A DNA stretch of 64,000 nucleotides from Paraburkholderia ginsengiterrae. Lineage in GTDB: Bacteria > Pseudomonadota > Gammaproteobacteria > Burkholderiales > Burkholderiaceae. The DNA is taken from assembly GCF_001645125.1 (NCBI RefSeq), contig NZ_LXKA01000022.1, positions 1 through 64,000 on the forward strand, written 5' to 3'. The notes under the pieces were generated by a model, which was not told the origin of the DNA, did not search any database, and saw nothing but the letters and a program-made list of their open reading frames with translations. Below, one piece after another: positions 16,375 through 43,233 of this stretch. Position 1 is the first letter of the stretch, and each line of letters opens with the position of its first letter. A program made the translations under genes and the position numbers.

Positions 16375-17328
16375 ATGACCGATCATATGCAAACGCCGGG
16401 GTTGCCGGAAGAACAGGCGTCGCAGGGATGTCCGTTTGGGCATGGGCGGGCGGCGGCGCCTGCTGCCTCTGCGGCTGATTCCGGCGTGGCCGGCGCCACG
16501 GCTGCCGGTGAGGGCTGGCATGATGCGCAGCTCGATTTTTCGGAATCGATGAGCTACGGCGATTATCTGTCGCTGGGGAAAGTGCTGGATGCTCAGCATC
16601 CCTTATCGCCGGATCACAACGAGATGCTGTTCATCATTCAGCATCAGACGAGCGAGTTGTGGATGAAACTCGCGCTGTATGAATTGCGTGCCGCGTTGAA
16701 GGCCGTGCATCGCGATGAGTTGCCGCCGGCGTTCAAGATGCTCGCGCGTGTTTCGCGGATTATGGAACAACTCGTTCAGGCATGGAGCGTTCTCGCGACG
16801 ATGACGCCGTCTGAGTACACAGCGATGCGGCCTTACTTGGGCAGTTCCTCCGGGTTTCAGTCTTATCAGTATCGGCAGATTGAGTTTTTGCTCGGCAACA
16901 AGAACGAGACGATGCTTAAGCCGCATGCGCATCGGGCTGATGTGTTCGCCGAGGTGAAGGCTTCGTTGGAGGCGCCTTCTTTTTATGATGAGGTTGTGAG
17001 GTTGCTGGCGCGGCGCGGGTTTGCTATTTCGCCTTCCAGGTTGGAGAGGGATTGGACTCAGCCTACTGCTCATGATGCTTCTGTTGAGGCCGCCTGGTTG
17101 GAGGTTTATCGGAATCCGTCCCAGCATTGGGAGTTGTATGAGATGGCTGAGGAGCTTGTTGATCTTGAAGATGCTTTCAGGCAGTGGCGGTTCAGGCATG
17201 TCACTACCGTTGAGAGGATTATTGGGTTTAAGCAAGGGACTGGGGGGACTAGTGGGGCGCCTTATCTCCGCAAGATGCTTGATGTGGTTTTGTTTCCTGA
17301 GCTTTGGCATGTTAGGACGATGCTCTAG
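16375..17328 (+). CDS. kynA: Tryptophan 2,3-dioxygenase KynA
   Basis: Haem dioxygenase that opens tryptophan to N-formylkynurenine, the first step of the pathway. 317 residues: a disordered N-terminus with CPFGHG (about 18-24) as in other Burkholderia enzymes, then [17 protein letters not shown], the distal His of [14 protein letters not shown], and the proximal His of [22 protein letters not shown]. Ten bases after kynU. The 3' half is unusual: codons such as GAT, GAG, GTT, TTG and AGG replace the C-ending codons of neighbouring genes, giving about 65% G+T on the coding strand, although the protein is intact. This borders the large inverted repeat. Confidence 0.95.
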
Positions 17329-17432
17329 GACGCTTTTTTTGCCTGCCCGGCGGTTTTGTTTGTGATCCTAATGTATTGGCCTTTCCTTGAATTCACGGTG
17401 GTCTATTGGCGTTGCCCCTGTGCGGGGCGGCA

Positions 17433-17464
17433 CCTACTTTCTTTGCCGCGGCAAAGAAAGTAGG
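17433..17464. repeat. 32-bp perfect palindrome, left copy
   Basis: Starts CCTACTTTCTTTGCC and ends with its exact reverse complement around a central CGCG. It can form a 16-bp cruciform or, as RNA, a hairpin with almost no loop. Confidence 0.9.
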
Positions 17465-17913
17465 CAAAGAAAGCCGCTTCACACCGCAAATTCTTAAGCG
17501 GGTCCTCTGGCTTGGAGGGGGTAGTGGTGCATCTGGAATCCGTGCCCTCGCACATTCAGCGCCAGTGACAAGGCAGTCATACTTCCGGCGGCGCTGCGCG
17601 CTCCGCAGCGGTACTTCATTACACCGTTCGCCACTTCTTGCGCCCGCGGCATTTCATCAAGCCACTGGCCGCCTCCCAATCCATTAACAATTTCGGCACG
17701 TCGCCGAGGCGAAGCCAATGGCCGCGCTACGCCGAGGCAAAGCCACCGGTTTTCCAGGCGGACCGCTCCGGCGAGCGCGCAGCGCGAGGCGGGAAAAATG
17801 AGTGCCTTGTCACTCACGCGGAGTGTGCGAGATGACAGATTCCAGATGCACCACTACCCCCTCCAAGCCAGGGGACCCGCTTAAGAATTTGCGGTGTGAA
17901 GCGGCTTTCTTTG

Positions 17914-17945
17914 CCTACTTTCTTTGCCGCGGCAAAGAAAGTAGG
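17914..17945. repeat. 32-bp perfect palindrome, right copy
   Basis: Identical to the copy at 17433-17464, inside the right arm of the large inverted repeat. Confidence 0.9.
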
Positions 17946-18002
17946 TGCCGCCCCGCACAGGGGCAACGCTAATAGACCACCGTGAATTCAAGGAAAGGCC
18001 AA

Positions 18003-18288
18003 CACCTTGCAGAGCACAGACAAAGCGGCATGCAGCCAACCACCACATCCACACCAATTTTCCGCACCGCACCACACACGACGACACGCCTCCATACCGT
18101 AAAAACCCACGATAAACCCAGAAAAAACCCAACCTTCACGCCGCGCCGCGCCAAAAAAACCCTCTCCCCTCGCCTTGACATTCGCATCACCGGGTAAGAT
18201 CATTCGCTCACACACAGAGCAAATGCTCCAAACTGCAAAAAAAATCGCACGCCAACGCCGTGCAGGCAAAAACACCCAGGAGACGCAC
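18003..18288. other. Amino-rich (A+C) intergenic region before polyol dehydrogenase
   Basis: 286 bases without a gene. From 18001 to 18180 only about 43 of 180 bases on the plus strand are G or T, the mirror image of the G+T-rich end of kynA on the other side of the inverted repeat. TTGACA occurs at 18175-18180 followed 14 bases later by TAAGAT, too close for a normal promoter. AGGAG at 18278-18282 serves the downstream start. Confidence 0.6.
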
Positions 18289-19701
18289 ATGAACAGCGTG
18301 CAAGGCAGCGGCGCAGCCACCCACACAATCCTGCACATCGGCGCGGGATCGTTTCATCGCGCGCATCAGGCGTGGTATCTCCACCGCCTGAACGAAGCCA
18401 AATTGCCCGGCGAGCCGCACTGGTCGCTAACAGTCGGCAACATCCGCAGCGACATGAACGCCGTACTCGACGCGCTCACCGCGCAAAACGGCGTGTACAC
18501 ACTCGAAACCGTCACGCCCCAAGGCGAGCGCGCATACGAAACGATTCGCTCAATCGAGCGCGTAGTCCCATGGACCGAAAGCCTTGACGCGCTGATCGAA
18601 GCAGGCGCCGATTCCGCCTGCAAGATCATCGCGTTCACCGTCACCGAAGGTGGCTATTACCTCGACGAACAGGACAAGCTCGACACGGCCAACCCCGATC
18701 TGGCTGCCGACCTCAAGGGCGGCCACACCACCATCTACGGCGCACTGGCGGCAATTCTCGCGGCACGCATGCAACGGGGCGCGGGCCCGGTCACGCTGCA
18801 AACCTGCGACAACCTGCGCAGCAACGGCGAGCGATTCCATGCGGGCATGAGCGAATTCCTCGCAAGGCGCGGCGACGACGAACTGGCGCAATGGTTCGAT
18901 GACTACGCCGCCTGCCCGAGTTCGATGGTCGACCGCATCACGCCGCGGCCCACGCCGGACGTGCGTGAACGCGTCAAGGCCGCCACCGGCGTCGACGACG
19001 CCTGCCCGGTGATGGGCGAGGCTTTCATCCAATGGGTGATCGAAAACCGCTTCATCACGGCACGCCCAGCGTGGGAGAAGGTCGGCGCGGAACTGGTCGA
19101 CTCGGTCATGCCGTACGAGGAAGCCAAGATCCGCATTCTCAACGCGACGCATAGCTGCATTGCGTGGGCTGGCACGCTCGTCGGCCTGAACTATATTCAC
19201 GAAGGCACGCTCGACGCGGACATCCGCAAGTTCGCCTTCGATTACGTCACCGAAGACGTGATTCCCTGCCTGACACCGAGTCCGCTCGATCTCGAACGTT
19301 ATCGCGATGTGGTGCTCGAGCGCTTCAGCAATCCCTACATCCAGGACACGAATCAACGTGTCGCGGCGGACGGCTTTTCGAAGCTGCCCGGTTTCATCGC
19401 GCCCACGCTGAGCGAATGTTTCGAGCGTGGTGTCACGCCCGCCGCCACGGCGATGCTGCCCGCCCTGTTCTTCCGTTTTCTCGAACGCTGGCAAGCAGGC
19501 AAACTGCCGTATGCGTATCAGGATGGCGTGATGGACGAGCGCGTCGCGCGCGGCTTCTTCGCGGCAGACGATCCGCTGAAGGCGTTCGCCGCGGACCGGC
19601 TACTGTGGGGCGGCATGGCGCAAACGGCGGGACTTGAGGCGGCGCTGGCGGACGCGGTAGCACGCGTCGATGCGTGGCTCGTCAAACGCGGCGCGGACTG
19701 A
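18289..19701 (+). CDS. Mannitol/arabinitol-type polyol dehydrogenase
   Basis: 470-residue long-chain NAD-dependent polyol dehydrogenase of the mannitol dehydrogenase family. N-terminal Rossmann part opens with ILHIGAGSFHRAHQAWYLHRL; the family active-site signature KxRxxNxxH is present as EEAKIRILNATHSCIAW. With a xylulokinase 132 bases downstream, a D-arabinitol 4-dehydrogenase (DalD) giving D-xylulose is the best guess; mannitol 2-dehydrogenase is the alternative. AGGAG six bases before the ATG at 18289 decides the start over the longer open frame. Its first ~400 bases still show the A+C bias of the upstream region. Confidence 0.88.
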   Translation: MNSVQGSGAATHTILHIGAGSFHRAHQAWYLHRLNEAKLPGEPHWSLTVGNIRSDMNAVLDALTAQNGVYTLETVTPQGERAYETIRSIERVVPWTESLDALIEAGADSACKIIAFTVTEGGYYLDEQDKLDTANPDLAADLKGGHTTIYGALAAILAARMQRGAGPVTLQTCDNLRSNGERFHAGMSEFLARRGDDELAQWFDDYAACPSSMVDRITPRPTPDVRERVKAATGVDDACPVMGEAFIQWVIENRFITARPAWEKVGAELVDSVMPYEEAKIRILNATHSCIAWAGTLVGLNYIHEGTLDADIRKFAFDYVTEDVIPCLTPSPLDLERYRDVVLERFSNPYIQDTNQRVAADGFSKLPGFIAPTLSECFERGVTPAATAMLPALFFRFLERWQAGKLPYAYQDGVMDERVARGFFAADDPLKAFAADRLLWGGMAQTAGLEAALADAVARVDAWLVKRGAD

Positions 19702-42027: not shown

Positions 42028-43233
42028 TTATTGCGCGGCCGATGCAGCAGAGGCAGTCTGTGCCACCTGTGCACCGCTAGCCGCCGCGTCGGCGGCGGGC
42101 GCCGGCGCGGGGACCGTCTTGACCGTCATGCCCGGACGCACCTTGTCGGTACCGAGCACGATCACGCGATCGCCCGGGTTCAGGCCGCTCTCGACCACCC
42201 AGTTCGCACCGTAGGTCGCCCCGGTGACGAGCTGACGCACCGTGACCTTGTTGTGTTCGTCGACGACGAGCGCGGTCGGCTGACCCTTTGGATCGTGCGT
42301 AATGCCCGTTTGCGGCACGACGATCGCGCGGTCGTTCACGCCTTCGTCGATGCGCGCGCGCACGAACATGCCCGGCAGCAGCACGCGGTCCTTGTTCTGG
42401 AAGATCGCGCGAACCGTGACCGAGCCGGTGCCCTGGTCGACCGTCACGTCGGTGAACTGCAGCTTGCCCTGCTCCGAATAGGCACGGCCGTCTTCAAGGA
42501 TCAGCGTGACCTTGGCGGCGTCCGGACCGTTCGTCTTCAGACGCCCTTCCTGCATCTGGCGGCGCAGCTTGAGCCCGTCGAGACTCGATTGCGTCAGGTC
42601 CACGTAGACCGGATCCAGTTGCTGAACCGTCGACATCAGCGTGGCCGCGCTCGCCTGCACGTACGCCCCCGGCGTAACCTGGGAAATGCCGACCTGGCCG
42701 GTCACCGGCGAGATCACGTCGGTATAGCCGAGATTGATCTGTGCGGTATCCACGGCGGCCTTGCCCGACGCGACGTCTGCCGCGGCCTGTCCTTCCGATG
42801 CGACGGCGTTGTCGTAGTCCTGCTTGCTGACCGCATTGGCCGCGACCAGCACCTTGTAGCGGTTCGCCTGCGCGGTGGTCGAGGCGAGGTTCGCCTGCGC
42901 CTTGGCAAGCGAAGCCTTGGCGCTGTTCAGCGCGGCGATATACGGCGCCGGATCGATCTTGTACAGGCGCTGGCCGGCCTTGACGAGGCTGCCTTCGACG
43001 AATTCGCGGCGCAGCACGATGCCGTCAACCCGCGCACGCACCTGCGCGACGAGGAACGCATTGGTACGGCCCGGCAATTCAGTGACGACCGGCACCGTGG
43101 TCGGCTGAACCGTGATGATGGCGACCTCGGGCGTTTGTTGCGGCGGGGCAGATTGTTTTGGTCCGCACGCTGCCAGCAATACGGCAGCCGTCGCGGCACT
43201 GATTAAGCGGAATGGAATCCGTTCGACGCGCAT
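42028..43233 (-). CDS. bpeA: RND efflux periplasmic adaptor lipoprotein (AcrA/BpeA type)
   Basis: 401-residue membrane fusion protein. The signal ends with lipobox LLAAC (Cys near 23). Lipoyl-like halves VVTELPGRTNAFLVAQVRARVDGIV and GYTDVISPVTGQVG flank a coiled-coil hairpin (about 105-170), then the beta-barrel and membrane-proximal domains. Joins the inner pump to the outer channel. AGAGGTCGCTCC precedes the ATG at 43233; a longer open frame up to 43419 is not a credible N-terminus. Ala-rich C-terminal tail. Confidence 0.95.
   Translation of the reverse strand: MRVERIPFRLISAATAAVLLAACGPKQSAPPQQTPEVAIITVQPTTVPVVTELPGRTNAFLVAQVRARVDGIVLRREFVEGSLVKAGQRLYKIDPAPYIAALNSAKASLAKAQANLASTTAQANRYKVLVAANAVSKQDYDNAVASEGQAAADVASGKAAVDTAQINLGYTDVISPVTGQVGISQVTPGAYVQASAATLMSTVQQLDPVYVDLTQSSLDGLKLRRQMQEGRLKTNGPDAAKVTLILEDGRAYSEQGKLQFTDVTVDQGTGSVTVRAIFQNKDRVLLPGMFVRARIDEGVNDRAIVVPQTGITHDPKGQPTALVVDEHNKVTVRQLVTGATYGANWVVESGLNPGDRVIVLGTDKVRPGMTVKTVPAPAPAADAAASGAQVAQTASAASAAQ

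Follow-up and report, generated by a model that had tools for sequence, protein, structure and literature searches.

Among the closest described systems are REPINs with their RAYT transposases. According to the available part of PMC3116915, REPINs are intergenic doublets in which two inverted, conserved ends enclose a less conserved spacer capable of pairing, with no transposase gene inside; the element described here has the same doublet build, less conserved interior, intergenic placement and lack of a transposase, and its spacer may likewise pair. Also similar are GTAG-tagged REP dimers, some of which occur in longer palindromes (PMC3733652, main text): they share with our element the dimeric build and a GTAG beside small hairpins in the core. 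MITEs form a third point of comparison, through their long terminal inverted repeats, their lack of a transposase and their many intergenic copies.

Here, we describe a paired inverted repeat behind the kynA gene of Paraburkholderia ginsengiterrae, together with the family to which it belongs. Such intergenic pairs form a large family across Paraburkholderia and Caballeronia that is apparently undescribed: a literature search, in which subscription papers were thinly covered, listed no paper on this palindrome family. Bacterial genomes are not expected to keep long palindromes stably, and yet a genome with this family has tens of them, which persist in different strains at fixed sites. The family offers a natural experiment on palindrome stability and on recombination between dispersed repeats, and it bears on how intergenic repeats turn into landing pads for insertion sequences and into carriers of small regulatory modules. 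We think it probable that the element is an oversized, REPIN-like, non-autonomous element that spread in trans and was then inherited and reshuffled.

The window copy and its kin in the same genome

The window is the whole stretch of DNA analysed, 64,000 nucleotides at the start of contig NZ_LXKA01000022.1. The element occupies 627 bp of it, between two co-directional genes, and is a short form. Its parts and neighbours are as follows.

16375..17328, + strand: flanking gene kynA, tryptophan 2,3-dioxygenase (Pfam PF03301, E 3.2e-70)
17337..17375, no strand: outer module on the kynA side, of a kind found outside many arms, some with extra ~40-bp units
17376..17578, + strand: left arm (203 bp); the genome holds 26 other stretches that match it over 132 bp or more
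17409..17494, + strand: conserved core of the left arm, with 92% identity to the query, the P. largidicola element core
17433..17464, no strand: perfect 32-bp palindrome in the left core (repeat search); related copies hold insertion sequences at the palindrome centre
17579..17799, no strand: spacer or interior (221 bp), with ~40 bp at its start and ~95 bp at its end that match the inner ends of other copies, and a variable middle
17800..18002, − strand: right arm (203 bp), an inverted copy, from alignment with the left arm and genome matches
17884..17969, − strand: conserved core of the right arm, from the search with the P. largidicola core
17914..17945, no strand: perfect 32-bp palindrome in the right core (repeat search)
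18003..18041, no strand: outer module on the far side, with a sub-threshold match to Rfam Bp1_684
18289..19701, + strand, the strand of kynA: flanking gene of the mannitol dehydrogenase family (Pfam PF01232 and PF08125)

The arms are ungapped inverted copies with 11 mismatches over 203 positions, nine of them at arm positions 166–201, within the inner 38 bases; the count of about 11, nine in the inner 38, given in the initial annotation is exact by alignment. A repeat search extends the arms to 17370–17601 and 17777–18008 (232 nt, 91% complementary, 175 nt between them). Over 86 bp, the window cores are 92% identical to those of the P. largidicola clade. The spacer had been described as lacking a good gene, and indeed the longest ORF overlapping 17579–17799 is on the minus strand, encodes 107 aa and matches no Pfam family at E 0.01. 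An Rfam scan detected no C4 RNA (RF01695) in the window copy. The sole Rfam match at gathering threshold within the window is the small RNA Bcj14 (RF02836), at 42953–43125 on the minus strand (145 bits, threshold 59).

The structure goes beyond chance, because the left arm recurs at full length, with 88–95% identity, at 24 other places in its own genome (G000; 8.53 Mb, a draft of 393 contigs), the right arm among them. With a minimum length of 132 bp, and with the left arm itself counted, there are 27 matches, and 22 of these form 11 inverted pairs of a single polarity, as deduced from match coordinates. The initial description of the arm as usually a single copy does not fit these numbers, nor does it fit three plasmids of the P. 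largidicola clade, in which all listed arm matches of at least 69 bp belong to pairs. Four of the five unpaired matches lie within ~2 kb of a contig end, and the fifth (C1:443362) is a single arm away from contig ends; elements of this kind may account for some of the breaks in draft Paraburkholderia assemblies. Spacers measure 163–427 bp in ten of the 11 pairs and 1843 bp in the remaining one, and reach ~2.9 kb in another genome, G132. The inner ends of the copies are conserved and asymmetric, and recurring modules, some with extra ~40-bp units, lie outside many of the arms.

Gene conversion between the two arms had been suggested as a reason for their persistence. Among ten of the 11 own-genome pairs (the pair with a truncated arm being left out), partner arms are 90.8% alike and non-partner arms 91.0%, and 3413 of 5000 shuffles reach the observed value. 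Since partners are no more alike than non-partners, arm-to-arm conversion is unsupported in this genome. In the P. largidicola clade, the inner parts of the arms are less alike in partners than in non-partners, a consequence of the difference between left and right inner types. As for the cores, those of partners are slightly more alike there, with 360 (W01), 15 (W02) and 1224 (W03) of 5000 shuffles reaching the observed value, so that the cores may undergo weak conversion in that clade. Local conversion may also act at the kynA site of other genomes, for example G027, in which the partner arms are 98.9% alike compared with a mean of 87% to other G027 arms.

Distribution and the kynA site

Arm matches occur in 10 of the 13 genomes of the genus that were examined, the own genome included, and in one of eight genomes of other groups, which agrees with the initial description of a frequent Paraburkholderia repeat. 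A pattern scan of named genomes yielded at least 119 stretches; the genome labels of the 80 listed read Paraburkholderia, Caballeronia or 'Burkholderia sp.'. In a sample spanning the order, with at most three candidates scored per genome, the core was matched in 14 of 300 genomes; matches outside the family extend over no more than 61 of the 92 core bases. Matching plasmid records number 14 (nine from Paraburkholderia, five from Caballeronia) and range from 70 kb to 2.6 Mb. We also considered a phage origin of the element, for which a phage collection gave no match.

We searched 145 genomes for kynA and examined the best 29 matches. At least one near-full arm (a match of at least 160 bp) lies just behind kynA in 12 of these 29, and two arms are present at nine of the 12 sites, as seen in longer stretches; this is the comparison of presence and absence behind kynA that the initial annotation had proposed. 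Because the site is filled in relatives with near-complete genomes of 2–7 contigs, the palindrome is no assembly artefact. Such an artefact, or else an isolated palindrome that arose by local inverted duplication and was kept by gene conversion between its arms, had some appeal given a draft of 393 contigs and the likeness of the two arms at the G027 kynA site. The 11 pairs in the own genome, whose partner arms are no more alike than others, the same paired form in genomes of 2–7 contigs and the circular plasmid records full of pairs leave this explanation highly improbable.

The idea of a recent origin fares less simply. With 12 of the 29 kynA sites filled, an element at this place is no peculiarity of the own genome; a recent replacement there is possible, as the own kynA-site arms are closest to other arms of their own genome: their mean identity is 92.5 and 92.7% to arms elsewhere in the own genome, and 83.9 and 85.4% to the kynA-site arms of other species. 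Judged from these sequence comparisons, the likeness would reflect within-genome homogenisation, recent spread or replacement; it could stem from conversion, but equally from a recent burst or from replacement of whole elements.

The kynA site also marks a change in gene order. Beyond the element, the mannitol-dehydrogenase side is common to G132 and the own genome (88%), while G129, G027 and G083 have another flank in common (90–93%). Within each group, both flanks of the element are common. As the kynA-distal flank (L370–L373) differs between the two groups, the element is a rearrangement breakpoint. The interior is oriented oppositely relative to kynA in G132 and G129, which rearrangement of the flanks may explain; inversion in place was considered and set aside, since the flanks beyond the element differ and rearrangement between copies explains the orientation equally.

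Fixed addresses, exchanged interiors and cargo

We examined the anatomy of the element in three P. largidicola-clade plasmids of 2.3–2.5 Mb (AP023176, AP028202 and AP028998), fetching from each 20 element places picked from detected pairs. All 60 elements are inverted pairs, and 53 of them measure 612–618 bp; one site holds 713 bp in all three strains, and four elements are enlarged by insertion sequences. In an alignment of 18 copies from one strain, each end has a near-invariant core of ~85 bp and the centre holds a conserved inverted 28-mer; the rest is variable. Identity between whole paralogous elements of the clade averages 82% (range 75–90%).

Elements keep their addresses. For 18 of the 20 elements of one plasmid, there are one-to-one counterparts in the two other strains (simple triplets); of the other two, one lies in a rearranged cluster and one forms no cluster by its flanks, its interior being 91–92% identical to one copy in each other strain. 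Interiors behave differently: in four of 16 compared triplets, they differ by 13–21% in at least one strain, with flanks ~99% identical. The differences lie mostly between the cores, and at one site also just outside one core. With flanks so alike and interiors so divergent, these elements have stayed at their address while their interior was replaced. A search of the same plasmids gave no donor for the divergent interiors, and whole-element inversion, considered as their cause, does not explain them. Two further observations concern the surroundings of elements. Between two elements at 1509–1522 kb of AP023176, ~12 kb seem rearranged relative to AP028202 and AP028998, with breakpoints at the elements. 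In G101, two elements 2.5 Mb apart (L326 and L327) have a common flank of 496 bp that is 100% identical, a likeness that may point to recent duplication or exchange at elements.

According to the gene table of the AP028202 record, which is described as possibly incomplete, all 20 elements of this plasmid are intergenic, two of them holding an inserted transposase gene. Twelve lie between convergent, five between co-directional and three between divergent genes. The probability of 12 convergent placements in 20 by chance is 0.0009 to 0.012 if a convergent share of 25–33% is assumed, from which the real share of the genome may differ. This excess would suit a long hairpin, or a pair of them, transcribed at the ends of genes to serve as a bidirectional terminator, mRNA stabilizer or small RNA and selected at the RNA level, and both outer ends of the window element do match the Rfam family Bp1_684 (RF02421; 17337–17443 on the minus and 17935–18041 on the plus strand). 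These matches, at 35.5 and 31.0 bits, stay below the gathering threshold of 44, however, and three of the 20 elements lie between divergent genes. Across 19 elements, pairing is without strand bias (427 G-T versus 449 A-C mismatches), and folding energy is lower on the chosen strand in six; partner arms of the own genome lack co-variation. The absent strand bias speaks against RNA-level selection on the hairpin, and we regard the transcribed-structure explanation as a whole as unlikely.

Longer interiors can carry cargo. From five genomes, we fetched 20 loci, mostly chosen for long or interrupted interiors; they contain insertion sequences, an ORF associated with C4 RNA, or no notable long ORF. 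This ORF, of ~150 residues and without assigned family, is present in ten of the 20. The C4 antisense RNA (RF01695) lies upstream of the ORF and was detected in all four armed loci scanned, above threshold at L019 (another locus of the own genome), L307 and L315 and just below it at L308. The own-genome locus, C383:187201–189449 (L019/L008), has an interior of 1843 bp with the C4 RNA, the ~150-residue ORF, a gene with a Tlde1 domain, which we take to be of the antibacterial-effector type, and a small neighbouring ORF lacking a Pfam match. For the cargo ORF itself, there is no Pfam or PHROGs match and NCBIfam matches are insignificant; a search with one query protein gave no match in viral contigs, phages or plasmids. 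A structure model shows three helices at low confidence.

A search for the ORF in eight genomes returned 34 matches. Each of the 12 best (at least 198 bits) is accompanied by arms: 11 have a detected arm on either side, and the twelfth is beside an arm near a contig end. Among the other strong matches (up to 163 bits), compared by eye in six genomes, none of 14 lies by an arm among the matches listed; the remainder are seven matches in G069, for which arms are not listed, and one weak match in G027. A weaker lineage of the ORF sits directly behind kynA without arms in nine of the 29 relatives (L049, L053, L055, L057, L059, L060, L062, L065 and L067), at the same address as the elements of other species. 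In G111, a shortened kynA-site element retains the end of the cargo ORF, the one copy in which such a remnant was seen.

The arms and a C4-regulated gene might together form one selfish or addictive unit, of which the short copies are the remains. The arms beside all 12 of the best ORF matches and beside none of the 14 weaker ones compared, the C4 RNA in every armed locus scanned and the G111 remnant all agree with this. Most copies, however, are without the C4 module, the ~615-bp elements in the P. largidicola clade have no room for it, and the ORF, with its low-confidence model, is a putative partner. Since ORFs of the weaker lineage occur away from arms, and in nine relatives do so immediately behind kynA, the module may have been captured as cargo, and we consider a dedicated C4 carrier rather unlikely. 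The family could also represent a new class of large palindromic mobile elements of Paraburkholderia and Caballeronia, in which paired cores would serve as recombination and transposition sites that keep the address while copies trade their interior cassettes, some of which consist of a phage-type C4 antisense RNA and the gene it regulates; we hold this to be possible, if doubtful.

Proposed mobility and comparison with known systems

Insertion sequences of several kinds are located in cores. One of ~1.66 kb interrupts the palindrome centre in two arms of G027 and four of G116, in both orientations (L311, L317; L353, L356, L358), the six insertions being judged the same or closely related from their ends; their common position suggests target-specific insertion. 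At GGCAC, G129 and G083 both carry another insertion sequence, of which the G129 copy has a CAC duplication, and a further one at GGCAC, with an 8-bp duplication, encodes a presumably IS256-like transposase. Four insertions occur in plasmid elements: two are annotated as 'IS5 family' in the record, and we assume from their protein sequences that the other two are of the IS481 and IS30 types. Separately, about ten bases at the palindrome centre of the L041 arm at 2181–2398 resemble the end of the insertion sequence that occupies this position in L047; they may be a scar of its excision. Insertion sequences within REPs are already known (PMC8450116, in the part available).

Sites were also compared between G101 and G116 by locating, from flank pieces, eight sites first seen in one of these genomes in the other. 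From the spacing of flank matches, six are filled, one holds ~200 bp, coincident with a single arm (L358 and G101:C2:1575894), and one, on reading its sequence, is a fused palindrome: L345 holds a 658-bp element where L363 holds a 91-bp palindrome of fused arm ends. This palindrome fits a deletion through the small outer hairpins or an insertion of the element into a pre-existing palindrome. Judged in this way, none of the eight is a clean empty site. Stability accounts better than ongoing mobility for sites that strains and species have in common.

A classical MITE, in which deletion has reduced an insertion sequence bounded by long terminal inverted repeats and the DDE transposase of that sequence moves the remainder with target duplication, would account for the 203-bp inverted ends, the missing transposase gene and the many intergenic copies. 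No target duplication was seen for the element, though, among sites that included no clean empty one, and its outer ends grade into ~40-bp units; moreover, in the loci read, each transposase gene inside a copy is part of an insertion sequence that is located in the interior or breaks up an arm, and two of these insertion sequences have their own duplications. We find a MITE origin improbable.

The oversized REPIN-like element remains our preferred explanation. The spreading unit would be the arm pair, its inverted, hairpin-forming cores being recognised by a transposase supplied in trans. Copies would land between genes, often behind stop codons, and be kept for long. Later recombination between copies would exchange or shorten the interior while both cores stay, and would sometimes rearrange the flanking regions; short forms would derive from long ones, a cargo remnant being seen in one copy. 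The own genome has a single Y1_Tnp (RAYT-like) match, on contig C57, which is without arm match; by its type, this Y1 transposase is a candidate for the trans-acting enzyme. Members of the Y1 family also occur in the three genomes of the genus without arm match, and among the 13 examined, presence of a RAYT did not discriminate genomes with the element from those without. As the analysis turned up neither a clean empty site nor a target duplication nor a dedicated transposase, the mobility of the element is something we infer; one of the options in the initial annotation, a mobile non-autonomous element, together with its remark that a transposase is lacking, is supported to this extent.

Set against the known systems, the element resembles REPINs in that two inverted conserved end motifs around a spacer form the repeated unit. 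It differs in its ~85-bp cores and in interiors that are exchanged and sometimes bear genes; at 627 bp, the window element is several times longer than the ~100 bp given for REPINs in the available part of PMC3116915. No linked RAYT was found, and in the own genome copies do not lie beside a cognate RAYT gene. Given its size and the missing RAYT linkage, we do not class it among the REPINs. Compared with the GTAG-tagged REP dimers, the cores are far longer, and the main text of PMC3733652 does not contain the word Burkholderia. Like MITEs, the element has terminal inverted repeats without a transposase; the 20 loci from five genomes held no parent insertion sequence, and no target duplication was seen, the one reduced site read being a fused palindrome. 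Both outer ends align over the whole Bp1_684 model, with scores below its gathering threshold. Long forms in relatives and at one other own-genome locus resemble C4 antisense RNA modules in carrying a C4 RNA upstream of an ORF. Multicopy C4-like RNAs are also described from Acinetobacter baumannii (PMC5320573, in the part available); here, the C4 RNA, absent from the window copy, lies inside the arms of a palindrome.
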